Source: a bacterium (GTDB taxonomy: Bacteria; JAJRZV01). From it: DNA of 24,971 nucleotides. The position numbers were made by a program, and so were the translations under genes. The stretch is from assembly GCA_024275095.1 (NCBI GenBank), contig JAJRZV010000132.1, forward strand, positions 1 through 24,971, read 5' to 3'. Under the pieces are notes generated by a model. That model was not told the DNA's origin and did no database searches. It saw only the letters and a program-made list of their open reading frames with translations. Positions 1,548 to 23,077 of this stretch are shown piece after piece. Within the stretch, counting starts at the first letter, position 1. Each line of letters opens with the position of its first letter.

Positions 1548-2816
1548 TTAAAACACCCTGAAAGGTTTGTTCTTTCTATTCAAGCCGGGGTAATCCTCTG
1601 CAAATGAAAGACGCTGAATCTGGTTTGTACCTTCATAAATCTGTGTCAACTTTACATCACGGAAAGCCTTTTCAACTTCGTTGCCCACCTTCACACCCTC
1701 GTCTCCCATAAAATCCACCACACGGGAACACACGTCCATAGCCACATCAGATGCAAAGCACTTGGCCGTTGCCGAAAGCCAGGATACAGGTGGAAACGTG
1801 GAACACGCGCGCCACACCACAGTCCGCGCAGCCTCAATTTTCATGAGCATATCGGCAAAAATGTGCTGCACGTGCCTGTCCCTGAGGAGGCCCTCCTTCT
1901 CCGCGTATTCAAGCCCTTTTCTCACGGCATGCTGAGCAGCACCAAGAGCGATAAAACCAACGGGTGGACGCGATGTATCGAGAGTCAACAAATTCAACTT
2001 CCAGCCTTCACCTTCACGACCCACACGGTTTGCAGAAGGCACTTTCACATCTTCAAAAATCAGCTCAGCCGCGGGGGAAGCCCGCTGTCCCATCTTATCT
2101 TCTATCCTTCCTACGGAAAATCCTTTCATCCCTCGCTCCACCACGAAGCACGTCCACGAATCAATCCCTTTTTCTTTGTCCGTTGCTGCAAATACTGTAA
2201 TAATACTGGCTACAGAGCCATTGGAAATGAAACACTTACGGCCGTTAAGTACATAATAGCCGTCTTTCTTTTTCGCGTAGGTGAGGAGCTTTGCCCTCCG
2301 AGCACCATGTGTATCTTCTGCATCAGAACCAGCCGCAGGTTCGGTAATGGCAAAAGCACAAAGCTCAGGCTTTCCTGACCTGGCAGCATCTGTAACACGT
2401 GAAAGAAACCGGCGTCCTGCCTTAAAATCCATTGACAGCAAAATGGGGAGCAATCCAAGCATGTGCGCACCGAAAATCACGGCTACTCCCGGACATACCT
2501 TGGAAAGTTCTTCAATAATCAATGCACCGTGAAGTGTACCGTGGCGGAAGAAATCGAGAAGCCGACCACCGCCGCCGAAAGTCCGCGGGATCAGGTCAGT
2601 GAGAAGGCCGATTTCGGCTCCCTTGCGCACAATCTCCCACGGGAATTCTTCCTTTGCGCGCCTGTCCAACTCTTCCACAACAGGCAAGATCTCTTCTTCA
2701 GCCCAGTGCCTCACCTCCTGGCGTTTCTTCTCTACATGGCGCGGAAGCCGACAGGGGTCTTTAATAAAGCCTCTGTGCGTGTAAAGAAAATTTAAGAGTT
2801 TATCCCGCAAACTCAT
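1548..2816 (-). CDS. acyl-CoA dehydrogenase (catalytic type)
   Basis: FAD-dependent oxidation of an acyl-CoA thioester to the 2-enoyl-CoA, with electrons normally passed to electron-transfer flavoprotein. The 422 residues are slightly longer than the usual 380-400. The helical N-domain covers about 1-150. The first family signature ends in AITEPAAGSD (156-165) and the beta domain continues to about 260. The C-terminal helical domain carries the second signature (GDEGVKVGNEVEKAFRD), followed by YEGT, whose Glu395 matches the catalytic base position. The ATG overlaps the stop of the upstream acyl-CoA dehydrogenase-like gene by 4 bp (ATGA), so the two are almost certainly co-translated and may form a heteromer. 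Chain-length or aromatic substrate specificity cannot be read from the sequence. Confidence 0.93.
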   Translation of the reverse strand: MSLRDKLLNFLYTHRGFIKDPCRLPRHVEKKRQEVRHWAEEEILPVVEELDRRAKEEFPWEIVRKGAEIGLLTDLIPRTFGGGGRLLDFFRHGTLHGALIIEELSKVCPGVAVIFGAHMLGLLPILLSMDFKAGRRFLSRVTDAARSGKPELCAFAITEPAAGSDAEDTHGARRAKLLTYAKKKDGYYVLNGRKCFISNGSVASIITVFAATDKEKGIDSWTCFVVERGMKGFSVGRIEDKMGQRASPAAELIFEDVKVPSANRVGREGEGWKLNLLTLDTSRPPVGFIALGAAQHAVRKGLEYAEKEGLLRDRHVQHIFADMLMKIEAARTVVWRACSTFPPVSWLSATAKCFASDVAMDVCSRVVDFMGDEGVKVGNEVEKAFRDVKLTQIYEGTNQIQRLSFAEDYPGLNRKNKPFRVF

Positions 2817-3763
2817 AGCAACTTCTCTTCTATTACCTGTTTGAAAAGTGCTGTACTACCCCGGTCCAACGCCGCGATGGTCTTCGCATCACGCAGTTTC
2901 CGTTCCACAACGTAGTCCTTCATGTAACCGTACCCTCCCAGCAACTGAACGGCATCAACACATACTTCCTCACATAATACGGCAGCAAGTGCTCTCGCCA
3001 TGAGTTTATCCTCTGTACCGCCGGCCGCGGCTTTAAGAACCCCTGCCTCAGAGAGAAGAACTTTCGCTTTCATGCGGCCCAGTATCTCCTGTACAATGCC
3101 ATGCCTGATAATTACATCTCCGCCCTGATACCGTTCGTTGGCATATCCTTCTGCTATCCGTAATGCATCCATTGCATTACCCACAGCCACCGCGGCAAGC
3201 AGATTCTGGACACGTGCATATATGTGCTTCTGTTCGTGCAGATTTAACTCTCCCAGCTCTTTCGCATGAACATCAGAAGTGGTTACAAACACGCTGCATC
3301 CCTGCAATCCCAGAAGAGCAACTTGATTGCTTCTCTCTCGCAGTTGATCACCGGTTACAAGCTCTACCCTTCCAGCCTCAACCACCACGGCATTGTGTAT
3401 GAATGGAGCAGCAATCACATGATGACTGAGCAGTCCTGCAGATGCGTAAAACATGTTCCTGTCTACGGTGACGTTCAGCGACTGAAGCACGTAAATGCCC
3501 GCATAATGCGAAAGCAACGCAACAGCAAAAGACGCACTCGCTTTGCCCAGCTCCAGCAGCACCCCGCACAACTCCTGCTCTCCCAATCCAACACCACCGT
3601 GTTCCTCTGAAAGAGGAGCAAGATGTAACACCGTCTCATGCAGCCACTTCCTGCACCTTTCCCATGCGTCCACATCTCCCTTCTCCATATCAGCAGAAAG
3701 CTCCGTCAGTTCTCTTTTTACAAAAGACTCTACGGCTCCAGCAATCTGCTGATAAAGATTCAT
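2813..3763 (-). CDS. degenerate acyl-CoA dehydrogenase-like subunit
   Basis: A 316-residue protein, much shorter than the usual 380-400. The C-terminal helical domain is clear: YANERYQGG near 207 and LLGGYGYMKDYVVERKLRDAK near 274-294. The part between about 90 and 175 is shortened and lacks the TEPxxGSD flavin-side signature. Where catalytic members have YEGT, this one reads ALDRGST, so the canonical Glu is absent. A GGAG sits five bases before ATG 3763. The 4-bp overlap with the intact enzyme downstream suggests a fixed-ratio complex. Heteromeric acyl-CoA dehydrogenases with one partly degenerate subunit are known (for example the actinobacterial FadE pairs). Whether this one binds FAD or is purely structural is open. 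Confidence 0.85.
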   Translation of the reverse strand: MNLYQQIAGAVESFVKRELTELSADMEKGDVDAWERCRKWLHETVLHLAPLSEEHGGVGLGEQELCGVLLELGKASASFAVALLSHYAGIYVLQSLNVTVDRNMFYASAGLLSHHVIAAPFIHNAVVVEAGRVELVTGDQLRERSNQVALLGLQGCSVFVTTSDVHAKELGELNLHEQKHIYARVQNLLAAVAVGNAMDALRIAEGYANERYQGGDVIIRHGIVQEILGRMKAKVLLSEAGVLKAAAGGTEDKLMARALAAVLCEEVCVDAVQLLGGYGYMKDYVVERKLRDAKTIAALDRGSTALFKQVIEEKLL

Positions 3764-4986: not shown

Positions 4987-5015
4987 ATTATGCGCTGTGA
5001 TTCAGTCTCTCACAA
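4987..5015 (-). promoter_or_regulatory. promoter abutting the rimP start codon
   Basis: Read leftward: TTGTGA (5015-5010), 17-base spacer, CATAAT (4992-4987), then seven bases to the ATG at 4979. The predicted transcription start falls within about one base of the start codon, so the message would be essentially leaderless. Confidence 0.45.
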
Positions 5016-5083
5016 GAAACTTTCTGGGTTATCTTGCAACTACGGATTGCTATAGTAATATCCCTGTGTTACTTTTCTTTACC

Positions 5084-7135
5084 ATGAAATCTCTAAAAGG
5101 GTTTATAGGCAAAGTTCTGTTTGTTTTAAGAGTTTACAAATCTACCAATTTCAATGTAACAGCACGGTTTATACGACAAATAATCCAAGCTCGAATAATA
5201 CGCTTCAAGTTCCTCCTTATCAAATATGGTGTAATTCCAGCATACCCTTCCCTCAAACCTTTTCTTAACACCTTCAGCGAAGAAAATAAGTTAATAGACC
5301 ACATCAGAACCAACATGTCCTGCTTTTTTATCCCTATGGCCAAAGAAATCCATCAAATAAAAAACAACCATCCGGACTATGTAAATCGGATTATATCGCA
5401 AGCCAACCGCATATTAGACAACACTTATTCCTTTTTGGGATCAGGGGACATCACTTTTCGTCAAGGAAATCTACCTTGGCATACGGATATTAAATCGGGA
5501 TACCACTGGGACAAGAAGACTTTTTACAAAAAAATCCGATACGGCCATATCGAAGGAGCGGACGTAAAGGTCCCGTGGGAGATGTCACGCTTACAAATGC
5601 TTCCTATACTTTCCCTTGCTTATCTTTTCACCGATGAAGACATCTATGTACGAAAGTTTATGGAAATATTTCGGAATTGGGTAGATGAAAATCCTCCGTA
5701 CCAGGGAGTCAATTGGGCTTGTACCATGGACGTTGCCATTCGCATGGTGAATATGACCGTAGGATTTCTTAACATTCTAAATTCCAAAGCAGTGACAGAT
5801 GACGATATTCGGATATTCTTGAAAGTTCATCTGCAACATGCCCGTCATATCCGTACTAACCTCGAATGGTCTCCGTTTCTTACATCAAACCACTACATGG
5901 CTAATATATGCGGTCTTTTTGCAGCATGCCTGCCTTTTGAGAAGTTCCCGGAATACAAGCGCTATTTGAACTTCTGCCGCAGGGAGATGGAAACCGAAAT
6001 CTTTAAACAATTCCGTAACGACGGCACAAATTTCGAATCGTCAACTTATTACCATGCATTCGTCACGGAAATGCTTCTTTATCCGTACGTATTCTCCCGC
6101 ATCAAAGGAGGGATAACCTTTTCACCCGCTTTCGAGGAACGCTTAAAAAAAGCCTGTTTTGTCATTCGTGAAATAACAACACCCGCCCAGCGTATCCCTC
6201 AAATCGGCGATACGGATAGCGGCAAGTTTCTATGCTTTGATTCACGCGACATTCTCGACTACACACACATTATCACTCATGCGGCGGTATTGTTTCCAGA
6301 CTTCCATCTACCTGAAAATCTCCATCCATCACCAGAGGTGCATCTGTTCTATGACAAAGAGCACATAACTTCAGCTATTATGCGGCGGCAGTCAGCCGAA
6401 GCCTCATTGATCTCGTTTAATGAAGGAGGCCTGCATATATACCGTGACCCGAATATGTATTTTATATTCTACGCTACTCCCCAGGGGACCGATGGTATAG
6501 GCAATCATAACCACAATGACAAATTGTCTTTCATCCTATTCGTATACGGGCAAGAGATCGTGACAGATCCAGGCACATATGTTTACACACCATATCCCAA
6601 ATGGCGGAACACCTTTCGTTCAACACGCTACCACAACACTGTCATGGTCAACAAAGAAGAACAATGTCGATTCGTCGATTGGTCTCTGTTTTATACCGTA
6701 AACGATGCTGAGGTCTCTTCAAAAGCTGAAAATAAAAAAAACTTGATATTATTCAAAGGTAAACACACCGGTTACAAACGTATCGGCATAATACATGAGC
6801 GCACCGTTAAACTTTCGCCTGGGGATATGCGCTTGGAAATAGAAGATTCCCTCACACCTGTGGAGGAAAGTAAAAACCCAAAAATAGCAGCTTCTATTTT
6901 TCTGCATCTGCATCCCGCCGTGCAAGCAGAGCAACACGGGAGCGAAATCAACCTTTACTGCAACCATGTGCTTTCACGTGTAGAGGTGCATTGCAAGAAT
7001 GTCAAAATAATACAGTCTTGGCACTCCCCCGAATACGGCCTCAAAGAAAGTTCAAGTGCCATCGAGTGTCGCCTCCACGACACCTTACCCATCACTCACC
7101 GTATGATTCTGTCGTTTTCCCGGAGGAGTATTTGA
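5084..7135 (+). CDS. heparinase II/III family protein
   Basis: Alginate/heparin-lyase-type protein with an alpha-helical toroid followed by a beta-sandwich, a class common in exopolysaccharide loci, where members may trim, edit or epimerise uronic-acid glycans. The helical part is marked by GVNWACTMDVAIRMVNMT, and the heparinase II/III domain by NHNHNDKLSF and the following DPGTYVYTPYP and RYHNTVMVN, with several candidate catalytic His and Tyr residues. From ATG 5084 the product is 683 residues. The frame is open back to a GTG at 4997 (712 residues); neither start has a Shine-Dalgarno, and the later ATG is preferred because it gives a more typical basic N-terminus. No signal peptide is evident. 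Its TGA overlaps the TTG start of the flippase, so the two are coupled. Confidence 0.85.
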   Translation: MKSLKGFIGKVLFVLRVYKSTNFNVTARFIRQIIQARIIRFKFLLIKYGVIPAYPSLKPFLNTFSEENKLIDHIRTNMSCFFIPMAKEIHQIKNNHPDYVNRIISQANRILDNTYSFLGSGDITFRQGNLPWHTDIKSGYHWDKKTFYKKIRYGHIEGADVKVPWEMSRLQMLPILSLAYLFTDEDIYVRKFMEIFRNWVDENPPYQGVNWACTMDVAIRMVNMTVGFLNILNSKAVTDDDIRIFLKVHLQHARHIRTNLEWSPFLTSNHYMANICGLFAACLPFEKFPEYKRYLNFCRREMETEIFKQFRNDGTNFESSTYYHAFVTEMLLYPYVFSRIKGGITFSPAFEERLKKACFVIREITTPAQRIPQIGDTDSGKFLCFDSRDILDYTHIITHAAVLFPDFHLPENLHPSPEVHLFYDKEHITSAIMRRQSAEASLISFNEGGLHIYRDPNMYFIFYATPQGTDGIGNHNHNDKLSFILFVYGQEIVTDPGTYVYTPYPKWRNTFRSTRYHNTVMVNKEEQCRFVDWSLFYTVNDAEVSSKAENKKNLILFKGKHTGYKRIGIIHERTVKLSPGDMRLEIEDSLTPVEESKNPKIAASIFLHLHPAVQAEQHGSEINLYCNHVLSRVEVHCKNVKIIQSWHSPEYGLKESSSAIECRLHDTLPITHRMILSFSRRSI

Positions 7136-8415
7136 AATTTTCATTTCAGGTGTTGCTTACATTTTTTTCGCGATTACTAATCAGGGTGCTCAGCTTCATC
7201 ATAAGTGTATTGATCGCCAGGTTCCTCGGCCCCGTGGGGAAAGGACTTATCTCGTATGTCAACACTATTGTGGCTCTCCTCAATCAATTCGGTACATTCG
7301 GTTTTAGTGCGTCCACCATATACTTTCTTGCTAAAGAAAAAGAACGTCGTCATATAGTCGCCAGTACCATAATCGCCTTCTCTTCCGGAGTTGTCTTGCT
7401 GTTCGATGGAGCACTCTTCGCTGCGTGGTGGTTCCTCAACATATTTCACGATCTGAACACTTTACTGATACTCATTGTGTTGCTGAGATTTCCTTTCATG
7501 CTTTTTGCACAGCGCATGAGTGACTTTTACCTGGCATACCAGAAAATCAAACTTTACAACGCCGTATCTTCTGCATCAGCCGTACTATCAGTAATTGTAA
7601 CAGCCGTTATTATCCTTTTATTTCACGGAGGCGCCGTCCACGTTCTCCTCGGGCACCTCGCCGTATCATTTGTTCAATTCGCATTCAACATAGGATTCTG
7701 GCTGTATAACAGGGTCGTCAGATTTGTTGTAGACAAGATGCTTCTTTCGGAAATGGTGAAATACGGGCTCAAATTTTACGTAAACAACTTGTGTGCGTTT
7801 ATGGTTCTCAGGTCGGACATACTGTTTATCAAACACTACCATGACAATTGGCATGTAGGGCAATATTCCGTAGCGGTACAAGCGGCGGAACTTATTTATA
7901 TGGTAGTGTCAACCGCCTCTCTTCTGTTATTCCCAAAACTGGCGGACAAGTCTCCGCAGGAGGCTGCATACTACGTGCGACGGACCCTGCGCATCACCTT
8001 GCACTTGATGCTTATACTCCTGACCGTGTGGGCGTTCACCGGCCGGATTTTTATCATCGCCGTATTTTCTTCACGGTTCGCCCCGGCTGTTTCGCCGTTT
8101 TACATCCTTCTTCCGGGAATGTTTTTCTTGGCTCTCTGGAGTGTCAGCACGCGATATTTTGCTGTCACCGGTATGCCTTTGTTCGTGCCCATGGCATGGG
8201 TAATATTTTCGGCTGTGAATATCATTTTAAATATCTTCTTAATACCCTCATTGGGTGTCGCTGGCGCGGCTGCAGCATCTTCCCTTACCTATATGTGTGT
8301 CGCCGGATTCCTCCTTTACAAATTTTTTACAATCACCGGCACACCGGTAAAAAAGGTTTTCTATACTTCCTGGGAAGAACTTAAGGAAGATGCCAAACTT
8401 CTCTTACCCGTGTGA
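7132..8415 (+). CDS. polysaccharide flippase, Wzx/MATE-like
   Basis: Integral membrane protein of 428 residues, strongly hydrophobic throughout with about 12 predicted membrane spans. It probably moves a lipid-linked glycan unit across the inner membrane. The N-terminal pattern of a Phe-rich first helix, then IARFLGPVGKGLISYV, is characteristic of oligosaccharide flippases (IARxLGPxxxGxxS). The start chosen is TTG 7132, preceded by GGAGGA at 7122-7127 and overlapping the heparinase stop as TTGA. The open frame extends to 6991 inside the upstream gene, but that stretch is highly basic and not flippase-like. It ends 12 bp from the stop of the convergent phosphatase gene. Confidence 0.9.
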   Translation: MKFSFQVLLTFFSRLLIRVLSFIISVLIARFLGPVGKGLISYVNTIVALLNQFGTFGFSASTIYFLAKEKERRHIVASTIIAFSSGVVLLFDGALFAAWWFLNIFHDLNTLLILIVLLRFPFMLFAQRMSDFYLAYQKIKLYNAVSSASAVLSVIVTAVIILLFHGGAVHVLLGHLAVSFVQFAFNIGFWLYNRVVRFVVDKMLLSEMVKYGLKFYVNNLCAFMVLRSDILFIKHYHDNWHVGQYSVAVQAAELIYMVVSTASLLLFPKLADKSPQEAAYYVRRTLRITLHLMLILLTVWAFTGRIFIIAVFSSRFAPAVSPFYILLPGMFFLALWSVSTRYFAVTGMPLFVPMAWVIFSAVNIILNIFLIPSLGVAGAAAASSLTYMCVAGFLLYKFFTITGTPVKKVFYTSWEELKEDAKLLLPV

Positions 8416-8427
8416 TATTACGAATTA

Positions 8428-10107
8428 TCAATCAATATACCCAAGATCCCTAAGGCGTTTCATAACTTTTTCGCGTTCCTCATCAGAAAAGGCATCTTCG
8501 TCGTTTTCCCTTGTAAGTGGAGAGACTTTTACACGAATAGTCTTTTCCGGGAGTTTAAAATAGCGTTCATCAACGGCTGGGCACCCGTCGAATTCCACAT
8601 CCGCATCAACGCCTTCACACTTCAACAATGTCGGCAAAAAATCATACACATTGAAAGGAGGAAGCGTCCCTTTCTTAATATCTTTTCCTGCAGTCATAAA
8701 AACACCGTCAGGATGATGATTAGCTCCTCCTTTGAAGGTGGTAAGGATCTGTTTTTCTCCCGGATCATTAACAATCCCAACGCCCGGAGCAGCTATCATC
8801 AACAGTTCGGGAAGAATCCTATCCTTTTCCATAAGAGTTTTACGGAACGATGGCCTGAATACCCTGCTGACAAGAGAAGTTCCCTGGGCTTCCGCTGATT
8901 CAAGAACATCTTTAATTTTGTTGATCAGGTCTTCTTTTTCAGATTCTGGCACAGCACCTTTTAAGAAATCTATTTTGTCATTTATGTATATGCCCCCGCT
9001 CATTCCAAAAGAAAACGCCTTGGTTTTATCCCATGCCAATGCATCCAAATCCGCACTCGCGGGAATCTCCAGCGGGGCCCGACCTGTTTTTACTAATAGT
9101 TTATTGACAGTGTTTGAACCCGGCATAAGAGTAAAAAACGATAGCAGCACTTTGCGTTTCATGGAAAGCCAGGGAACGCTCCAAATACGCATGGCTCGAT
9201 GAATAGTACGAAAATATTGATAAGCAAAAGATAACTCCAGATAGCCTTTCTCCCTCAAATATGCATTTAAAGCGAAGTTTTTGTCCACATCCTGAGCGCC
9301 ATGATCTGAGACCACATAGTAGCGGCAAGCCTCTCCAAACATTTCCACCACTGCAGTTACAACATCATCCACTCCCGCATAAGACTGTGTGACAGGATCA
9401 AATTCTTCTTGTATCGCGGCAGCACCTTTGAAAAATCTCCATCCATAATGCTGTACGGTATCAACATCCGTGAAAGCGATGATTGCATAGTCAAAGGCGT
9501 ATTCTTTCAGCAAGAAACTTATAAGTTCCTTCCTGTGCATGAGACTATCTTTTTCTATTTCCATATAATCACGGAAATATCTACCTTCAGTATCATTCAT
9601 AAATGCGGTACGTGAAAATCCTGGATGATTTGCATAATGATTGGGGAAACGCATCTTCAAGTTTTTTTCAATTTCAGGATCGGAACAGACCCGGGCGCAT
9701 TGCGAAAGAGGTTTGGGTGCTCCCATAAAAACCACCGTATTTTTATAACCCCGATCCATAAGTTCCCTGGTAAAGGGGACATTGAACAAAAGCCCCCGCA
9801 TACCTGCGCTTTCCATAATTTCCCAGAGGTTCCAGGGCTGGTAATAGGATCGTTCGATATCCAACGTGTGATCCGGCTTTATTTTCAAAAAATCCAGGAT
9901 CCCGTGTGATATGACATCAAGCCCTGTAAATATGCTGTTCCACGCAGAAGGGGACATTGGCGGTATTGTGGATTTCAACGTCGCCCGAATCCCCTCGTCC
10001 ATCATCCATCCCAGGGCTTTCAATTGATGCTCAGCCCTCATATAGTCGAGTACGGAAAAAGATGCGGCATCTATTCCAAAAACAATAAATTTAGGAGCCG
10101 CCGACAT
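8428..10107 (-). CDS. alkaline-phosphatase-superfamily phosphodiesterase/phosphatase
   Basis: Type I phosphodiesterase/nucleotide pyrophosphatase fold, 559 residues, with two-metal catalysis. Candidate ligands and catalytic residues in order: Asp13 in GIDAAS; Ser52 in PPMSPSAW, where family members place the Ser/Thr nucleophile; His70; Asp214-x-Asp216 with His220 in TDVDTVQHYGW; Asp268-His269 in VVSDHGAQ; and His464-His465 in GANHHPDG. No signal peptide is visible, so a cytoplasmic or peripheral location is likely. Members are common in glycan clusters, where they may act on phospho-sugar or lipid-linked intermediates. AGGAGGTGAA precedes the ATG. It is the last gene of a minus-strand cassette, 24 bp after the methyltransferase. 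Substrate unknown. Confidence 0.87.
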   Translation of the reverse strand: MSAAPKFIVFGIDAASFSVLDYMRAEHQLKALGWMMDEGIRATLKSTIPPMSPSAWNSIFTGLDVISHGILDFLKIKPDHTLDIERSYYQPWNLWEIMESAGMRGLLFNVPFTRELMDRGYKNTVVFMGAPKPLSQCARVCSDPEIEKNLKMRFPNHYANHPGFSRTAFMNDTEGRYFRDYMEIEKDSLMHRKELISFLLKEYAFDYAIIAFTDVDTVQHYGWRFFKGAAAIQEEFDPVTQSYAGVDDVVTAVVEMFGEACRYYVVSDHGAQDVDKNFALNAYLREKGYLELSFAYQYFRTIHRAMRIWSVPWLSMKRKVLLSFFTLMPGSNTVNKLLVKTGRAPLEIPASADLDALAWDKTKAFSFGMSGGIYINDKIDFLKGAVPESEKEDLINKIKDVLESAEAQGTSLVSRVFRPSFRKTLMEKDRILPELLMIAAPGVGIVNDPGEKQILTTFKGGANHHPDGVFMTAGKDIKKGTLPPFNVYDFLPTLLKCEGVDADVEFDGCPAVDERYFKLPEKTIRVKVSPLTRENDEDAFSDEEREKVMKRLRDLGYID

Positions 10108-10131: not shown

Positions 10132-11025
10132 TTACTTCTGTGCTTCAACAATAATATACCAGCCCACCCTTCGCCCAATGAGATCAAGGAGCAAATTCGG
10201 TTTATGTCTGTTTCTGAAAACTCGAGCTACGTAAGCAATATCTGCAGGCACGAGATGGCGCACATATGCCTTTACCTTTGAAAAATCCTCAAAAAGCCTG
10301 GAAAAGCCCCGCTTTGTATATAGTTTAACAACAAGGTTTTCATTCGTATGAGGATATTCAATAAGACTCAAATGTTGTTTTAATGTGCGCACCCTATAGT
10401 TGCCCGCTATAAGATAATTTAATGCAAATACATTCCACAAAAAAAATATAGAGCGTTTGTTATACACAGCGATGTAACACCTGCCGCCCTTCTTCAAAAC
10501 TCTGTGAACTTCACTTATCGCTTTTGCAGTATTCGGAACATGGTGCAACACACCCAGAGAATACACGAAATCAAAAGATTCATCCTCAAAAGGCAGAGAT
10601 TCCGCATCTCCTATAAGAAGGCGCGTCTTCATCCCGTAAATATCAAAAAGAGCTCGAGTCTCTTCAATACATCTGGGAGTAATATCCACTCCAAACATAT
10701 TCGCACCTCGTCCGGCAAGTTGCAGATGATCTGTGCCGGCACCCACACCAATTTCAAGTACCCTCTTCCCCTCAATATCAAAGGACTCTATGGCCTTCTT
10801 TATCCAAGGATGAGAAAAATAACGGAATCGGCGAATTTCCTCAAAATACTCCTTGGTGAGATGCGGCGCTTTAGCGACGTGTGTGCCTGCAGGAGCTTGA
10901 GACCATACTCTTCTGGCTGATTTTTTGTATTTCGGACTGTATGAATATTCAACGGTGTCACGCAGTTCCATCAAGGCCGAAAAGAAATCTTTTATCCTGG
11001 AAGAGATGTTACTTTTGATCTTCAT
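10132..11025 (-). CDS. class I SAM-dependent methyltransferase (paralogue of 16799-17641)
   Basis: A 297-residue methyltransferase_11-type enzyme. SAM motif I is VLEIGVGAGTD (89-99), the acidic ribose-binding residue lies in GVDIT (near 114), and the later motif is FDFVYSLGVLHHV followed by VLKKGG. The C-terminal 100 residues end in VGWYIIVE, a tail shared with the methyltransferase at 16799-17641, so the two are paralogues. Its ATG overlaps the stop of the upstream beta-propeller gene by 4 bp and GGTGGG serves as ribosome site. It is probably a sugar or glycolipid O-methyltransferase of the cluster; the acceptor cannot be deduced. Confidence 0.88.
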   Translation of the reverse strand: MKIKSNISSRIKDFFSALMELRDTVEYSYSPKYKKSARRVWSQAPAGTHVAKAPHLTKEYFEEIRRFRYFSHPWIKKAIESFDIEGKRVLEIGVGAGTDHLQLAGRGANMFGVDITPRCIEETRALFDIYGMKTRLLIGDAESLPFEDESFDFVYSLGVLHHVPNTAKAISEVHRVLKKGGRCYIAVYNKRSIFFLWNVFALNYLIAGNYRVRTLKQHLSLIEYPHTNENLVVKLYTKRGFSRLFEDFSKVKAYVRHLVPADIAYVARVFRNRHKPNLLLDLIGRRVGWYIIVEAQK

Positions 11026-12188
11026 TGCCCACCATATTCAAACACACTCATAAATTGAGTGCTGTTGGCTGGATGAATCCGATATACCAAGGAAGTTTTC
11101 GATGTATACTTTGCTGCTTTTTTTAAAAATTCTTCCGCTGTTGCAGGCAGAGTAAAGAAGCGTTTTTCGTAAAGAAGTGTATTCTTATTTATGTCGTATA
11201 TAGCAATGGTGTTATGATCAGACACCGAAAACGCATAAATATCGCCGCTGAGTTGCGTCGCGTCATGAAGCCACCTAGAGTTCACCTTGAACCTCCGCTG
11301 GATTCTCCCTTCATCATCAATAAAAACAAGACTCCCCGTTACGCTATCAGCGAAATAAATACGACCTTCCCGCGACATACGCGATCCGTGGCATCCTACA
11401 AAACCCCTTGTTATTTCTTTATATGAACCTTTACGCCAGTCAAAAACACCTACAGCCCCTTGTATTAAAGTAGAAACAATTATCTTGTCACCGGCTGTAT
11501 CGGGATAGGCACAGTTAATGTGTGTCGTCTGGCAATCATTGTTAATATAGTGCTTGTGTAGATCCATATCTTCACTCAAATCATAATTTTTCCCGTAAAG
11601 TTCTTCCGGCATTCTCAGGATCTTTTCAACAACTCCATTTTCAACATTCAACATCAACACAGCATCGGGAGCTGATGCAGAAACAGCCACCATCTTATCG
11701 CTGACAGGAAATACCGTGTGCAAGCCTGCAAAAAACGGGTGATTGTAAGTTCTCAAATTCCGGCATGGTTCACCAGCAATGGACTTCCATTTTTCCACCG
11801 GAGTCTCAAACTCCCACATTTCAATAAAATGTTCATAGCATACTACAAGTCGGCGGCTGTCCATCATAACCACATGCTGAATTTTGTGATCAGATTTTTT
11901 CATACCGAGATAATCCACCTTTACTTTATTGCCAGAAGATACAAGAACACGGAAAGCTGAAACTGCCCCGGCGTAAAAATAGTCAGCAGGCTTCAAGGAT
12001 TCAAAAGGAGGGAGTTTTTTTAACCTATCCGGATCTGCATAACGTTGAGTAAGAAAATTAAGGGAACATCGAGAATAATCGGTAACCCTGCTCGAATGGG
12101 TTAAAAAAAGAATAAAATATCTATCATTCATTAGAAAAGCACTTGATTTCCAACCTGTCCGGGTTAAATGTATTCTAAAGTCTGCCAT
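11022..12188 (-). CDS. uncharacterised beta-propeller protein with histidine-led blades
   Basis: I do not recognise a named family. From ATG 12188 it has 388 residues. The sequence resolves into repeats in which a His is followed by a strand, a turn, a second strand and a third strand: QHVVMMDSRRLVV, LHTVFPVSDKMVAV, THINCAYPDTAGDKIIV, CHGSRMSREGRIYF, LHDATQLSGDIYAF. Their His residues (105, 157, 223, 267, 308) are 41-66 residues apart, the spacing of propeller blades. Segment SSAFLMNDRYFILFLT near the N-terminus looks like a further blade. Five histidines lining a central channel would suit metal or anion binding, as in some NHL-type lyases and arylsulfotransferases, but that is inference. 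No signal peptide. It heads a cassette with a methyltransferase (4-bp overlap) and a phosphatase. TTG 12200 is an alternative start. Confidence 0.75.
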   Translation of the reverse strand: MADFRIHLTRTGWKSSAFLMNDRYFILFLTHSSRVTDYSRCSLNFLTQRYADPDRLKKLPPFESLKPADYFYAGAVSAFRVLVSSGNKVKVDYLGMKKSDHKIQHVVMMDSRRLVVCYEHFIEMWEFETPVEKWKSIAGEPCRNLRTYNHPFFAGLHTVFPVSDKMVAVSASAPDAVLMLNVENGVVEKILRMPEELYGKNYDLSEDMDLHKHYINNDCQTTHINCAYPDTAGDKIIVSTLIQGAVGVFDWRKGSYKEITRGFVGCHGSRMSREGRIYFADSVTGSLVFIDDEGRIQRRFKVNSRWLHDATQLSGDIYAFSVSDHNTIAIYDINKNTLLYEKRFFTLPATAEEFLKKAAKYTSKTSLVYRIHPANSTQFMSVFEYGGQ

Positions 12189-12200
12189 GAAAACTGTCAA
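12172..12200 (-). promoter_or_regulatory. candidate promoter at the 5' end of the beta-propeller gene
   Basis: Read leftward: perfect TTGACA (12200-12195), 17-base spacer, TAGAAT (12177-12172). It matches consensus very well but lies over the annotated start of the beta-propeller gene; transcription from about 12165 would force initiation at the internal ATG 12131, cutting a blade-like segment. Either the short form is real or the match is fortuitous. Confidence 0.35.
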
Positions 12201-12229
12201 CTCCCGATATTTCTATAACGTCAGGGCTG

Positions 12230-12258
12230 TTGAACAAGCTGGATGCGCTTCGTATAAT
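12230..12258 (+). promoter_or_regulatory. promoter of the plus-strand methyltransferase
   Basis: TTGAAC (12230-12235), 17-base spacer, perfect TATAAT (12253-12258). The ATG at 12268 is ten bases beyond the -10 box, leaving at most a few leader bases. It faces away from the TTGACA/TAGAAT pair on the other strand. Confidence 0.5.
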
Positions 12259-12267
12259 GCTTTTGGA

Positions 12268-13071
12268 ATGGACAATTTAAGAGAAAATATTTACGGGCAT
12301 AAAAAACGCTTCGAACATATTCTGCAAGAAATCGAGAAATATCGTATTCAGCAAGGAATCTCCAAAAATGAGTTAGAAATACTGGATGTCGGCTGTGGCA
12401 CAGGTGTAATGTTGACCTTCCCGCTGGGCCATGCAGGCTTTCATGTCACGGGCTTGGACATTGATTCTAAAAGCATCCAAGCGGCACAATCCCTTAGTCC
12501 TCCCGAGAATGTGAAGTTCATATGCGGCACACTGGAAGATTTGAAACAACGTTTCCACGTCATTGTGTGCTCTGAAGTGCTGGAACATATTAATGACCCA
12601 GAAAACTTTCTTAGAAAAGTTGCCCAGCATCTTCGCAGCGATGGAATTCTCATCCTTACTGTTCCCAACGGTTACGGGGCTTTTGAAATTGAAAAATTTA
12701 TATACGAAAAATTAGGCGGAAAACCCGCCATCAATATTACGGAAAAAATTATTTATCGCATCCGCCGAATGCTCATACGCACGGGGCTTTATCAGCCTCC
12801 TCCCTCCCTGCCGTGCCCGTCCACGCTCAACAAAAGTCCTCATGTACAAAGATTCACATTAAAAAAATTGGTGTCTTTGGCAGAAAAATGTGGACTAAGG
12901 GCAATAAATATCAGAGGAAGTACAGTGGTAGGAGGAGCTGTGACCCATTTTTTGATTGGCTGGTCTGAATTTTTCGTAAAAATGAATGCTGTCTTGGGAG
13001 ATCGGGTACCACTACCTGCAGCGAGTGGGTGGTATGTCACCCTGAAAAAGATCGAGAAGACAGGCCCATAA
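12268..13071 (+). CDS. class I SAM-dependent methyltransferase
   Basis: A methyltransferase of 267 residues from ATG 12268, related to UbiG/Methyltransf_23-type enzymes. Motif I is ILDVGCGTG (38-46), with GLDID for ribose binding and VICSEVLEHI/ILTVPNG for the later motifs (the first reads VIVCSEVLEHIND). It is not closely similar to the other two methyltransferases here. The frame is open to ATG 12187, but that extension would overlap the start of the divergent beta-propeller gene and lacks a ribosome site, while a good promoter ends ten bases before 12268. The 3' end overlaps the convergent glycosyltransferase by 35 bp. Probably methylates a glycan or lipid-linked intermediate. Confidence 0.85.
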   Translation: MDNLRENIYGHKKRFEHILQEIEKYRIQQGISKNELEILDVGCGTGVMLTFPLGHAGFHVTGLDIDSKSIQAAQSLSPPENVKFICGTLEDLKQRFHVIVCSEVLEHINDPENFLRKVAQHLRSDGILILTVPNGYGAFEIEKFIYEKLGGKPAINITEKIIYRIRRMLIRTGLYQPPPSLPCPSTLNKSPHVQRFTLKKLVSLAEKCGLRAINIRGSTVVGGAVTHFLIGWSEFFVKMNAVLGDRVPLPAASGWYVTLKKIEKTGP

Positions 13072-14680
13072 ACTCAATTATCCTTCTCACATGTGCTTGC
13101 CAGGTATAATGAGCAAGTGCTTCTTCGCGTGCACTTCTGCCCAGGCGCATACGCATTTCATCATTCTTAATCAGTTTTTCGATGCCATCACAAAGGGCTT
13201 GCACGTTCCCCGGTTCCACCAGCAATGCTGTTTCACCCTCACGCAGGATTTCACTTATTTGACCCAAAGCGCTTGCTACAATGGGCCGACCTGCCATCAT
13301 GTATTCAAATAATTTAGTAGGTGAACCGAAAAATTCGGAACCGTCAGGGTTGGGCACGTGGGGCGAGACGAGCACGTCACAGGCAAGAAGATATACAGGC
13401 ACATCTTCAGGTGGAATCATTCCTGTAAAAATAGTCAAGTGGACCACTCCTTCGTGTGAGGCGATCTCTTCTGCAAACCGTCTCCGGACACCATCGCCGA
13501 TAAAGAGAAAACTTACATCAGGAATACGCTTCGATAAGGGCTTAACCGCTTTCGCCAGCACTTCTGCACCGTGCCATGGACCGAATGTGCCCACAAATCC
13601 CACCACATAGCGATTCTGTAAACCAAGCTTTTTTCGCAAATTTTCTACTTCCTCCCGCTGGACCTTAATAAAAGGCTCGGGATCTACACCATTTGGGTTT
13701 ACAAGGACTCGCTCCTTTTTAGCTCCACGATTTAAGAGTTCATCCCGTAATGATCGAGACACCACTACAATATAATCCGCTCCCTGTATAACTATGTTTT
13801 CATACCACAATGCAACACTGCTGCCTGAGCGTCCTTCCCCCCATTTCTCCGCAATCCAAACTTCAGAACCGTTGTATTCCAAAACCAACGGGATTCGCCT
13901 CAAACGAGCATAAAGCACTCCTGCAATAGCATATATGGAATAACGCTGGTAGAGAAAAGCGGGACGACCGAATTCTCTCTCCAAGTGGATCATATGCATG
14001 AAAACACGGAGGTTGAAAAGAATAAGCGCAGGGATACGAAGGTTGGCAAACCAACGGAACGGATTTACAAGCCTGCGGACCGCTTCTTCAGGTTCAATCA
14101 TAGGATTATCCTCAACCGCTACAAATACACAGCTTATACCGCATCGTCTAAACCCCTTTATCACACCGGCTGTATGGGTTACGGATCCACCGGCTTTAAT
14201 GCCTTTTTTATAGTTCATTCGAAGATAAAAACACATATCACCACTGGGCGGCATTGGGCGGCGGTGAAGTAACATCCTAGCCGCACAGCCCATAATCAGC
14301 GCCACAGGCCAAGCCACAATGCTTGTAAGTAATTCTAAAAACAAATGCGGAATATCCTTCCCGAACAAACGCATCCACGAAATGCGCCTGATGTTTCCCT
14401 CCGTATCTATTATCATTCGTTCTGCCGCTGGAGTGACAAGAAGAAGAAGCGCAATCAACACCAGTGGTTGAACCATACTTGTGTCGGAGACGGCAAACAG
14501 GCTTTTATGTACGGTCCCCCATTGCCGCCTGCGATTCCTTATGAAACTCGAGATCTCGCGACGAAGACTCGTAACTTCTATTGTATCCACAAGCTCATCA
14601 CGTAAAAAGCGCTCTCGAACCTCACTGGCAAAGCGGCTTTCGCCCCAGAAGTGGAACAGGAGAGTCTTCCCAAACGACAC
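13037..14680 (-). CDS. GT4 family glycosyltransferase with N-terminal membrane extension
   Basis: Retaining GT-B glycosyltransferase of 547 residues. The catalytic part starts near residue 150 (GGSVTHTAGVIKGF, the acceptor-side loop of GT4 enzymes), continues with FVGTFGPWHG at the start of the donor domain, and has the nucleotide-sugar motif SPTKLFEYMMAGRPIVA. The first 150 residues are extra: two hydrophobic segments at about 70-85 and 110-138 that would anchor the enzyme to the inner membrane. The start is GTG 14680, sharing one base with the stop of the amidotransferase gene; AGGAGG lies ten bases upstream. It is the only recognisable glycosyltransferase in the island. Donor sugar unknown. 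Confidence 0.9.
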   Translation of the reverse strand: MSFGKTLLFHFWGESRFASEVRERFLRDELVDTIEVTSLRREISSFIRNRRRQWGTVHKSLFAVSDTSMVQPLVLIALLLLVTPAAERMIIDTEGNIRRISWMRLFGKDIPHLFLELLTSIVAWPVALIMGCAARMLLHRRPMPPSGDMCFYLRMNYKKGIKAGGSVTHTAGVIKGFRRCGISCVFVAVEDNPMIEPEEAVRRLVNPFRWFANLRIPALILFNLRVFMHMIHLEREFGRPAFLYQRYSIYAIAGVLYARLRRIPLVLEYNGSEVWIAEKWGEGRSGSSVALWYENIVIQGADYIVVVSRSLRDELLNRGAKKERVLVNPNGVDPEPFIKVQREEVENLRKKLGLQNRYVVGFVGTFGPWHGAEVLAKAVKPLSKRIPDVSFLFIGDGVRRRFAEEIASHEGVVHLTIFTGMIPPEDVPVYLLACDVLVSPHVPNPDGSEFFGSPTKLFEYMMAGRPIVASALGQISEILREGETALLVEPGNVQALCDGIEKLIKNDEMRMRLGRSAREEALAHYTWQAHVRRIIEFMGLSSRSFSG

Positions 14681-16587
14681 TACAGTATTGCCTCCTTCCC
14701 CTCAATCCACATTTCATACCAGAGCACAAAATTAAGTAGATACCACAACTTAACACCTTTAGTGGTTTCAAGAAATTCTTGGAGGTACTGTCTATCAAAA
14801 AACTCAGTGCGGCTGGCGAACTCCAACAACTTTCTCCTTCCCACTTCGCCCAATCGACTCTCAAACCATTCGTACACAGGAACACCGAACCCCTGTTTTT
14901 TACGGTATACGATTTCGTGAGGTAAAATATTTTCCACTGCTTTTTTCAAAATGTATTTCAGTTCATCGTTTTTAGTTTTCAAATCTTCGGGAATACCCAT
15001 TACATATTCCACAAAGCGATGATCAAGAAACGGAACCCGTGCCTCAAGAGATACCGCCATACTCATTTTATCTACGCGCATCAAAAGCAGTTCCGGGAGT
15101 CTGAAATTCAAATCGAGATACGTCATCCACAGCAATGGATCTTTCTTCACGCTTCTTGTCCGGCAGAATCTCCTGTAAAATGGCTCTATTGCATCAAAGG
15201 ACGAAATTTCTCCCAGTTCATCCTTTACATCGGTGGATAAAAGATTGCGTTTTTCTGCTTCATAAAAGGCCTCAGCGCCTCCCCAGAAGACAGGTTGTCC
15301 CTCTGTGTTGCGACGCAAAAATTCATAGTAGCCAGAACTTCCTTTACCCAGCATCCGTATTGCACTCAGCAACACACGTTTGAAAAGCCGGGGCACAGGC
15401 AAATTACCCCAGCGCTGAAGCTGAAGCAAAATTTTCCAGCCGGGATAACCCCAGAAAAGCTCGTCGCTCCCCTCTCCAACCTGGCACACAATCACCCCGT
15501 TGTCTCGGGCAAGCTTTGACACGTAGTAAACAGGCACACACACAGGGTCACCGATGGGTTCGTCCTGGTGGTAAACGAGCGACGAGAGAAAGGAAATGAG
15601 GTCGTCTTCACCTATGACAATCTCATGGTGTCGTGCACCGATCATTTGTGCCACCCGCCGCGCGTATTCGAATTCGTTGGCGTACGTTTTGTAGTCTCCC
15701 CTGTAACCTATGGAAAATGTACATACCGGTTCTCCACGAGAATGCTTTGAAAAGAGCACCGCGTTTGTACTTGAATCTATTCCTCCTGAAAGAAACACAC
15801 CAACAGGCACATCACTCACCATGCGATAGCGCACAGCCTCTTCAAGCCGTGCCAGCAGTTCTGCAGAAATATCTTCCTCACTACCGGAAATACTTTCCGC
15901 GTTCTCAATTGGGTCCCAGTATCTATGTTCTTGAACGTTACCTCTTTCATCCACCTTGAGCCATGTAGCTGGCGGCAGTTTGTATATACCTTTGAATAAT
16001 GTTTTAGGAGCCGGAGACGTAAGGAAAGACATATAATGATAGAAGGCTTCAATATCCACCGCCCTTTCTACCCGGGGGTGCTGCAACAATGCCTTTATCT
16101 CACTGGCGAAAAGAATGCTTGAAGAACTGAGGGTGTAATATAAAGGCTTAATCCCTATTCGATCCCTCACAAGGTAAAGTTCCCTTTTTCTTGCGTCCCA
16201 CAATGCAAATGCGAACATCCCTCTGAACCTGTGGATACACTCAATCCCCCATTCCCGATACGCGTAAAGGATAACTTCTGTATCCGAACGGGTGCGAAAA
16301 TGGTGCATGTCCTTGAGCTCATCTCTCAATTCTGCAAAATTGTAAATTTCGCCGTTGTAAACCACCCATATCTCACCGGAATCATCACTCATGGGCTGTG
16401 AAGCTGCCTCGCTCAGGTCAATGATGGAAAGCCTCCTGTGCCCGAGACCCACCGACCCGTCATCAGCAATCCAGGTACCGCCCGCGTCTGGACCACGGTG
16501 GGTCATTACATTGATCATGCGCTCGATCAGAAGCCTGTCCACCTCCTTCTTCTTGCCGAAACAAAAGCATCCTGCAATTCCACACAT
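14680..16587 (-). CDS. asnB: asparagine synthase (glutamine-hydrolysing) family amidotransferase
   Basis: The N-terminal class II glutaminase begins directly with MCGIAG, giving the catalytic Cys2 after Met removal, and has RGPDAGG, RRLSIIDLS and YNGEIYNF. The synthetase half has the ATP-pyrophosphatase loop SGGIDSS (267-273) and later EGSDELFWGY and EARVPFLDHRFVEY. The 635 residues are typical. Classical AsnB makes asparagine from aspartate, but copies inside glycan clusters often amidate uronic acids or other carboxylates, which would fit the lyase-type protein nearby. GGAGG precedes the ATG; a TATAAT lies at 16624-16619. It is cotranscribed with the glycosyltransferase. Assignment to free asparagine synthesis versus glycan amidation is not decidable here. 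Confidence 0.9.
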   Translation of the reverse strand: MCGIAGCFCFGKKKEVDRLLIERMINVMTHRGPDAGGTWIADDGSVGLGHRRLSIIDLSEAASQPMSDDSGEIWVVYNGEIYNFAELRDELKDMHHFRTRSDTEVILYAYREWGIECIHRFRGMFAFALWDARKRELYLVRDRIGIKPLYYTLSSSSILFASEIKALLQHPRVERAVDIEAFYHYMSFLTSPAPKTLFKGIYKLPPATWLKVDERGNVQEHRYWDPIENAESISGSEEDISAELLARLEEAVRYRMVSDVPVGVFLSGGIDSSTNAVLFSKHSRGEPVCTFSIGYRGDYKTYANEFEYARRVAQMIGARHHEIVIGEDDLISFLSSLVYHQDEPIGDPVCVPVYYVSKLARDNGVIVCQVGEGSDELFWGYPGWKILLQLQRWGNLPVPRLFKRVLLSAIRMLGKGSSGYYEFLRRNTEGQPVFWGGAEAFYEAEKRNLLSTDVKDELGEISSFDAIEPFYRRFCRTRSVKKDPLLWMTYLDLNFRLPELLLMRVDKMSMAVSLEARVPFLDHRFVEYVMGIPEDLKTKNDELKYILKKAVENILPHEIVYRKKQGFGVPVYEWFESRLGEVGRRKLLEFASRTEFFDRQYLQEFLETTKGVKLWYLLNFVLWYEMWIEGKEAIL

Positions 16588-20792: not shown

Positions 20793-21290
20793 TTAGAAGA
20801 ATGTACCAATTGAAAATTCAAACACCACAGACCGCTCCCCGGGTTTCTTCTTGATGGGAAATCCCCACTCGAACCGGAAGGGAGCAATGGGAGTAAACCA
20901 GCGGAACCCAACACCCCAGCCCATCCTCATCCTGGTAAGGTCAAGTGGTTCATCTTCAGCATAAGCTCGACCTGCATCAAAAAAAATAACACCTTTTATC
21001 CCGGCCTGCTCGAAAATAGGGAACAGCAGTTCTGTATTAATAATAAAGGCCTTGTTGCCTCCGTAAACAACGTCACGGGTATAGGAATAGGGTTCATCAG
21101 AAAGCTCAAGAACTCTGGTGGTGGGACTGAGTGAATTATAGTCGTATCCTCGCACAGTATAAATGCCTCCCACGAAAAAGCGTTCGGAAAATGGCATGCG
21201 TCCCCCGTTGAGCTCATAACCGGCTCTCAATTTGGCACCGAGCATAAACACGAGTTTCCACACTGGATTAAAGTACATCTGATGCCCCAC
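20793..21290 (-). pseudogene. bamA: BamA C-terminal barrel fragment (frameshifted part)
   Basis: The C-terminal part of BamA, separated from the main frame by a single-base shift. It contains the barrel-lumen loop VRGYDYNSLSP, RMGWGVGFRWFTPI and the terminal beta-strand ending GTFF, with the C-terminal Phe typical of outer-membrane barrels. Coding similarity extends upstream of ATG 21290 to about 21337 (FAGTYLGGDFDFVKTT in this frame), showing the ATG is not a true start. With one base restored the joined protein would be 761 residues, a normal BamA size. Confidence 0.85.
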
Positions 21291-21298
21291 AGTCGTTT

Positions 21299-23077
21299 TT
21301 ACAAAATCAAAATCACCGCCAAGGTATGTTCCTGCAAAGTGGTAGAGATAATCGTGTACTGACCTTTTTTGGGGTCAAAGGGATGGTCCCTTGTATCACG
21401 GACCAACTCGAGCGACATACTGCTCGTCCATCCACCCTCAAAAAGCGAGGAAAGACCGCTTCCGCTGATGTCAGTAATCCCCACTTTCTCCAGCTTGTAA
21501 GAGATGTAAAAACGTGTGAAATCCGTGATAAGGCGCCCCACGCGAATGACACCGCCGTACGCACGCCTGGTAAAATCAATGTAATTCTGGTCCTGTGCGT
21601 ACATGTCCAGTCCAAAAGACCAATCCGTGTCCAGAAAGTAATTATCCAGAAAAGAAAGGGCGGCATTTTTGCGTCGTGAAGATATCTCAAAATTCATTCT
21701 TACACGCTGGCCGTATCCCATGAAATTCCCAAAAGATGCCTGAAAGGTGCCGATGAAACTTTCGAAAGAACTGAAACCAACTCCTGCTGTCAGTGTACCT
21801 GTGCGTCCTTCTTTAACATCCACAACCAGATTCATCCGCCGTTCACCCTGGGGTCTCGTCTTGATTTTCACCTCTTCAAAAAAACCTGTAGCCATGAGCC
21901 TCTGGCGCGAAAACGCTAGCAAACTCGCATTGTAAAGGTCACCCTCTCCCAGCCTTATCTCTCTGCGAATAACTTTATCACGTGTTTTTGTGTTGCCGGT
22001 GATATCAATTCGATTGATGTAAACAAGTTCACCTGTCTCAATGCGAAAGGTGATATCCACTGTCTTGTTTACGTCGTCAGGACGTATAATTGGCTCCACA
22101 TTACAATACGCATATCCAATATCTTCATACTTGCGCGTGAGGGTCAGTATATCCATTCCCACTTTGGAACGGCTGAACGGTTCACCTTCCTTTGTCTTCA
22201 ATGATTTAATAATTTCAGACCGGCTGAAAATCACATTGTTTTCAACGTCTATTTTTCCAATATAATATTTATCTCCTTCTTCCACAGGAATGGAAATGTA
22301 AATATACTTTTTATCACGGGAGACCTCTACAACAGGCTGGCCCACGGACACACGCAAAAAACCTTTGTCCATATAATAAAACCGAATACGATCCAGATCT
22401 TCAGACAGCTTGTCCACTTCGTATTTTCCCGAGCGGGTGAGAAAGGAAAGAGGCCACCATTCCCTCGTCTGCATAATTCTTTTTATCTCCTCATCAGGAA
22501 TCTGAACATTCCCGGATATAAATATTCGCTTTACACGCACAGGGCTTCCTTCTTTTACGTCGTAAATCACTTCCACGGCATTCTTACCACTATCCTTAAC
22601 CACAGGGTTCACTTCTGCCAGGAAATATCCCTTCTCCTCGTATGCCCGCCGAATAGTCTTTACATCTTTATCAAGGCGTGACTTGTCGAAGAAACGTCCT
22701 TTCTTCAGCTGTAAATCTTTTTCTATATCTTCCTTTTTGACCTTCTTCATGCCCCGAAATTTCACATCCCTCACGTATTTCTTCTCTTTCAACCGATAAA
22801 TAAGAACTACGCCTCCTGTGACAGGTTTCGTATACACGCGTATGTTTTCAAAATATCCCAGATTGTAAAGGGACTTTATATCATTACGCACAGCATCTTT
22901 ATCGAGAATGTCCCCTTCTCTTATAGATATGTACTCTCTTACGAGTTCAGAAGAAATTCGATAAAGTCCTTCTATGATGATCTCTTCGACTTTCTGTTTC
23001 GAAACATCAGCAGCATGGGACGCTACAGAGAACAACACCAGTACCATCAGGATTAATCCTCGGAAAAACTTCAGCAC
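21299..23077 (-). pseudogene. bamA: BamA outer-membrane assembly protein, N-terminal part (frameshifted)
   Basis: BamA inserts beta-barrel proteins into the outer membrane. The product begins with a signal peptide (residues about 1-22, ending SHAA), followed by five POTRA repeats to about residue 425 (for example VEEIIIEGLYRIS, RDVKFRGMKKVKKEDI, VKRIFISGNVQIPDEEI, IGKIDVENNVIFSRSEI, INRIDITGNTKTRDKVI) and then barrel strands. The frame reaches DTRDHPFDPKKGQYTIISTT and then goes out of register within a few codons, stopping at 21299; barrel coding continues in another frame. The shift maps to the AAA at 21336-21338. The start is GTG 23077, five bases after the lolD stop. As bamA is essential, a sequencing or assembly error is the simplest explanation. 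Confidence 0.9.

Follow-up and report, generated by a model that had tools for sequence, protein, structure and literature searches.

A predicted beta-propeller protein distantly related to arylsulfate sulfotransferases in a probable surface polysaccharide cluster

The locus and its genes

The window analyzed here, i.e., the whole stretch of bacterial DNA under study, is 24,971 nucleotides long (contig JAJRZV010000132.1). An ORF listing of this DNA places a 388-amino-acid reading frame on the minus strand (12200/12188..11022), and the plus strand at 11022-12188 contains many stops. The TGA stop codon of the reading frame and the ATG of the adjacent methyltransferase gene overlap by 4 bp (11022-11025), which bears out the translational coupling proposed for these two genes in a preliminary description of this DNA. 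The true start codon is uncertain, being either ATG 12188 or ATG 12131 (M20); the latter would be favoured by a promoter-like sequence (TTGACA-17-TAGAAT) that extends across 12200-12172, although promoter-like sites were no more numerous in the region than in shuffled sequence. Two good promoter-like sites are located back to back (12172-12268) between this gene and a plus strand methyltransferase gene; the longest-ORF starts of these two genes overlap, and each gene may actually begin at a start codon farther downstream. No significant and meaningful family match to the encoded protein was found in Pfam, NCBIfam or PHROG.

The surrounding genes (Table 1), which include three methyltransferase genes in all, probably form a cluster that builds a surface polysaccharide. 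Elsewhere in the window, on the minus strand, a bamA-like outer-membrane assembly gene (20793-23077) is present as two ORFs, apparently by frameshift, with the POTRA domains and the start of the Omp85 barrel in one (21299-23077) and the rest of the barrel in the other (20793-21290). Because this gene is normally essential, the split is possibly an assembly error. The same strand carries two adjacent, overlapping acyl-CoA dehydrogenase genes (1548-3763), the second of which has no middle-domain match.

Table 1. Coordinates of the propeller gene, of residues discussed in the text and of neighbouring genes in the window.
Feature	Position	Strand	Remarks
Beta-propeller protein CDS (predicted), 388 aa	11022..12188	-	ATG 12188, alternative ATG 12131; ORF, predicted model, homology
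H105, strand A of first well-defined blade	11874..11876	-	not His in relatives
H157, E. coli ASST His252 position	11718..11720	-	His in 3/4 family members
H223-I-N225, ASST His356-x-Asn358 position	11514..11522	-	invariant in family
L241, ASST Arg374 position	11466..11468	-	L/F in family, R in ASSTs; defining arginine lost
H267, catalytic ASST His436 position	11388..11390	-	invariant in family
H308, ASST Thr501 position	11265..11267	-	Q/Q/R in relatives
SAM-dependent methyltransferase (Methyltransf_11)	10132..11025	-	E 7e-25; start codon overlaps propeller stop
Type I phosphodiesterase/nucleotide pyrophosphatase (alkaline phosphatase superfamily)	8428..10107	-	PF01663 E 1e-23; next in operon
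Heparinase II/III-like protein and Wzx-type polysaccharide flippase	4997..8415	+	polysaccharide locus context
GT4 glycosyltransferase and asparagine-synthase-type amidotransferase	13037..16587	-	polysaccharide locus context

Predicted fold and placement of the histidines

The protein was modelled with AlphaFold2 from an alignment of two rows, the protein itself and one homologue fragment. This model had a mean pLDDT of 58 and a pTM of 0.60, with most of the C-terminal half at 70-89, and a single-sequence model made without homologues was weak (pLDDT 51, pTM 0.48). Confidence in the two-row model is low to medium. In structure comparisons, both models matched propellers throughout. For the two-row model, Foldseek matched beta-propellers in 1,664 PDB chains at E<=0.001, and the best match in VIA-align, also a propeller, had a Z score of 21.7 and an rmsd of 3.0 over 269 residues. 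Entries for arylsulfate sulfotransferase (ASST) were absent among the 50 matches listed by VIA-align or Foldseek, the lists being filled with WD40 proteins. Five clear four-stranded blades are seen in the model; the N-terminal ~100 residues are ill-defined, and the blade count could be 6 or 7. Thus, the protein is predicted to be a beta-propeller, a circular array of four-stranded blades, as the preliminary description had suggested when it called the protein an uncharacterised beta-propeller and proposed structure prediction as a check; its coding strand is corrected to minus.

That description had also listed five histidine-led peptides, all of which are present at exactly the spacing given (H105, H157, H223, H267 and H308; 52, 66, 44 and 41 residues apart), and had stated that successive blades begin with histidine. 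In the model, strand A, the inner strand, starts at residues 103, 156, 224, 266 and 307 in five consecutive blades, and the five histidines fall at residue -1 to +2 of these strands, in agreement with that statement. When the sequence was shuffled, a histidine occurred in the four-residue window at all five strand starts with a frequency of 2.5e-5, and the pattern therefore exceeds chance.

A small family with an invariant HxN and histidine core

One clear relative was found in a Nitrospirae MAG, a protein of 308 residues that is 31% identical over 125 residues (BLASTP E 5e-10; L002, identical to L029). A plasmid search with the window protein itself gave no direct relative, and the same search with the L029 homologue matched a hypothetical protein of an Eleftheria terrae plasmid (tblastn E 9e-6), which aligns with the window propeller at a pairwise E of 4e-10. 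A fourth and weaker relative, L060, was matched in one genome by a three-member profile (E 7e-7; pairwise BLAST E 0.13), and we include it in the family provisionally on the strength of that profile match. Sampling of about 386 diverse genomes by sequence or profile yielded the one clear relative and L060, the remaining profile matches being ordinary NHL, SGL or ASST-like propellers. We also scanned 84,980 genomes for Q-x-T-H-[IMLF]-N-C-[AV]-x-P, a strict motif that does not gauge the full spread of the family; a relative was encoded at one of the 14 loci found (L029, in the Nitrospirae MAG). Viral and phage searches returned no relatives. Among the sampled genomes, the family seems to be rare.

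Conservation was judged without close relatives, the source genome being the sole member of its phylum among those searched, and from four sequences: the window protein, L029, the Eleftheria terrae protein and L060. Although overall identity is about 20-30% across these distant taxa, H223, N225 and H267 are invariant in all four. H157 is histidine in three of the four and arginine in L029. At the other two positions only the window protein has histidine; H308 is replaced by Gln, Gln and Arg in the relatives (blade F of L060 was read from its sequence). The ring of five histidines envisaged in the preliminary description is therefore partly specific to this lineage, as H105 and H308 are not conserved. 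The conserved core consists of an H-x-N plus a histidine, usually with a third histidine.

Similarity to arylsulfate sulfotransferases

The active site of ASST comprises His252, His356, Asn358, Arg374, His436 and Thr501 (PMC13426309). We compared a three-member profile of the propeller family (A3) with a profile built from nine ASSTs (PF05935) of other genomes (A8). The two profiles matched in hhalign with a probability of 96.6%, an E value of 5.4e-10 and a score of 78, a result that depends on the match columns, since another choice of columns gave only 31%. In control comparisons, 60 column-shuffled decoys reached at most 17.7, a reversed profile 13.3 and an unrelated methyltransferase 25. 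The L029 homologue independently matched an archaeal 'arylsulfotransferase (asst)' in the plasmid search (tblastn E 0.01), and hhalign matched the family to this protein at 93-95%, also under the other match-column choice. Matches to NHL and SGL propellers were lower (65-70%).

Placed on E. coli ASST (3elq), the ASST profile reproduces His252, His356, Asn358, Arg374 and Thr501; His436 appears in the profile alignment as QH, which is read as QN in the 4p04 sequence. The window protein has H157 at the position of His252, H223 at His356, N225 at Asn358, L241 at Arg374, H267 at His436 and H308 at Thr501, the last of these placements being the least certain, as it was made by eye from the pattern of the neighbouring blade. 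The blade with the HxN aligns without gaps (window, THINCAYPDTAGDKIIVSTLIQGAV; 3elq, AHVNSIAYDAKDDSIILSSRHQGVV). As four of the five histidines coincide with ASST active-site positions, their convergence on the central channel is plausible from this alignment. The position of Arg374 is occupied by Leu241 in the window protein and by Phe in L029 and the Eleftheria protein, the three core members. Thr501 is a weak criterion, because many of the ASSTs in the A8 profile carry G or S there.

The window protein thus resembles ASST/AssT (PF05935; E. coli 3ELQ) in its propeller fold, in the His252, His356-x-Asn358 and His436 positions, and, locally, in the sequence of the blade with the HxN, but it lacks Arg374, Thr501, the FDNG motif and a signal peptide, has no detectable N-terminal beta-sandwich domain, and falls below Pfam detection. 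No PF05935 match was found for the protein or elsewhere in its genome, and the Eleftheria relative matched PF05935 at an E of only 0.33. A sulfotransferase had been among the functions suggested for this propeller, together with HMM searches against NHL, ASST and DUF4915 families. The histidines and the HxN on ASST positions and the homology at profile level speak for that suggestion; the loss of Arg374 and Thr501 speaks against it, and neither the curated PF05935 score nor the NHL and DUF4915 searches gave a match. The protein is best called a divergent propeller of the ASST superfamily, a distant relative of the known enzymes. Although it perhaps works like one, we do not file it as an ASST, because it falls short of the curated cut-off and lacks Arg374 and the export features.

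The nearest named relatives in sequence are archaeal ASST-like proteins (PF14269/PF05935, e.g., QIO25454.1 of Haloarcula JP-L23), which share the His and HxN positions but, unlike the window protein, keep the arginine and have a hydrophobic stretch at the N-terminus, either a signal or an anchor. The maximal 15-residue hydropathy within the first 65 residues is 0.91 in the window protein versus 2.26 in the Haloarcula ASST, which agrees with an earlier remark that no signal peptide is present, and none of the four family members has a hydrophobic N-terminus. Therefore, unlike ASSTs such as the periplasmic E. coli enzyme (PMC13426309), the window protein is probably cytoplasmic, as judged from its N-terminal sequence.

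NHL-repeat, SGL and ScyD/ScyE propellers have similar blade repeats and were weakly matched by the L029 homologue, but the match of the window family to ASST is stronger, and Pfam detected no NHL repeats (PF01436) in the window protein. DUF4915/TIGR03032 (PF16261) shows a similar H ... HLN ... PHS pattern by eye, which has no statistical support. Identity with DUF4915 was rejected: hhalign gave 2% or less, and there was neither a curated match nor a match of the model in the genome. In the DUF4915 proteins themselves (L056 1423-2505 and L057 1330-2523), H ... HLNG ... PHS can be read by eye as in ASSTs and in the propeller family; they are possibly a distant branch, for which a profile comparison with two sequences gave no support. 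A literature search found nothing on DUF4915/TIGR03032.

Gene context of the relatives

The L060/L062 relative is surrounded by five proteins with PAPS-sulfotransferase domains, a sulfatase and glycosyltransferases. This region (L062, G236:C69, 415-14004) is a dense cluster of genes for sulfotransferase-domain proteins, some of which are fusions with family 2 glycosyltransferases; it also includes a sulfatase and the ASST-like propeller, and looks like a sulfated-glycan locus. By inspection, the Nitrospirae relative (L029) adjoins a MarR-like regulator and dehydratase-like genes; the Eleftheria relative is flanked by FG-GAP repeat proteins and a PEMT/ICMT-type membrane methyltransferase. Thus, two of the four family loci are polysaccharide or sulfation clusters, and the other two (L029 and L042) are not obvious glycan clusters.

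A recurring propeller-methyltransferase-phosphodiesterase triplet was rejected, as a neighbourhood search found other neighbours at L029/L063, L042 and L062, and the Eleftheria methyltransferase is of the PEMT/ICMT type. The glycan-modifying role that had been suggested along with this triplet is plausible from the window neighbourhood, but as a cassette the triplet does not recur. A PF01663 homologue on a haloarchaeal plasmid likewise has genes for a glycosyltransferase, an epimerase and a polysaccharide deacetylase nearby. A literature search for ASST-like propellers in exopolysaccharide loci brought up no relevant work.

Proposed function and alternatives

We tentatively propose, as a reading that is possible but falls short of probable, that the protein is a cytoplasmic, divergent ASST-type propeller that uses histidine chemistry to transfer or remove a group in glycan modification. 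In this proposal, H223, N225 and H267, with H157 and H308, would line the channel as the active site, and H267, at the His436 position, would be the nucleophile or acid-base, acting with H223 and N225. A small, probably anionic group would be transferred to, or removed from, a sugar or lipid-linked intermediate during polysaccharide assembly, and the coupled methyltransferase and phosphodiesterase would work on that product or on one close to it. Given the loss of the sulfuryl-binding Arg374, the group is probably something other than sulfuryl taken from an aryl sulfate, and plain aryl-sulfate sulfotransfer is unlikely, as judged from the sequence. With Arg374 replaced by Leu or Phe, Thr501 by His or Gln, and the signal peptide missing, ASST chemistry may even be lost altogether.

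Metal-binding propellers use strand-A histidine geometry of the kind found here, at four to five equivalent positions, and the protein could be a metal-dependent lyase or isomerase, or a metal-binding propeller, in which H157, H223, H267 and H308 hold the metal as in propellers of the peptidyl-hydroxyglycine lyase type, and no histidine would serve as the nucleophile that accepts the group. The absence of the anion-binding arginine and the presence of virginiamycin B lyase (2z2n) among the Foldseek matches listed are consistent with this explanation. However, two invariant histidines, with Gln or Arg elsewhere in place of H308, are thin for a conserved metal site, and in sequence the protein matches the ASST group best, whose described active site is metal-free (PMC13426309), so that we consider a metal site rather unlikely.

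We regard with similar doubt the explanation that the protein is non-catalytic, i.e., a glycan- or protein-binding scaffold or a sensor in polysaccharide assembly that inherited the ASST histidines and no longer uses them. Many propellers are binding modules, Arg374 is lost in all family members inspected, and conservation is poor outside the core; however, the invariance of H223, N225 and H267 at such low overall identity suggests that chemistry or the binding of a ligand has been kept at this site. It is very improbable that this is a generic NHL/WD40-type propeller with a chance histidine pattern and only a shared fold with ASST. Weaker profile matches to NHL and SGL propellers do exist, and the first matches in a PDB profile search were 'Pizza' proteins, which are designed and of NHL type; however, the ASST match has a far higher score and puts the histidines on catalytic positions, and the shuffling frequency was low.

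To return to the ASST-type reading, its most far-reaching form is an ASST-derived cytoplasmic family with a hydrophobic residue in place of the arginine and a histidine-rich channel, which would carry out an undescribed group transfer or elimination on glycans in sequence with the methyltransferase and phosphodiesterase; in this form we consider it unlikely. If the histidine core does work without Arg374 in the cytoplasm, this would show that the assembly of polysaccharides has put the ASST propeller to a new chemical use, and proteins now labelled hypothetical would form a testable family. If it does not, the His/HxN/His signature would still be a useful annotation, tying unnamed propellers of glycan loci to a solved enzyme.
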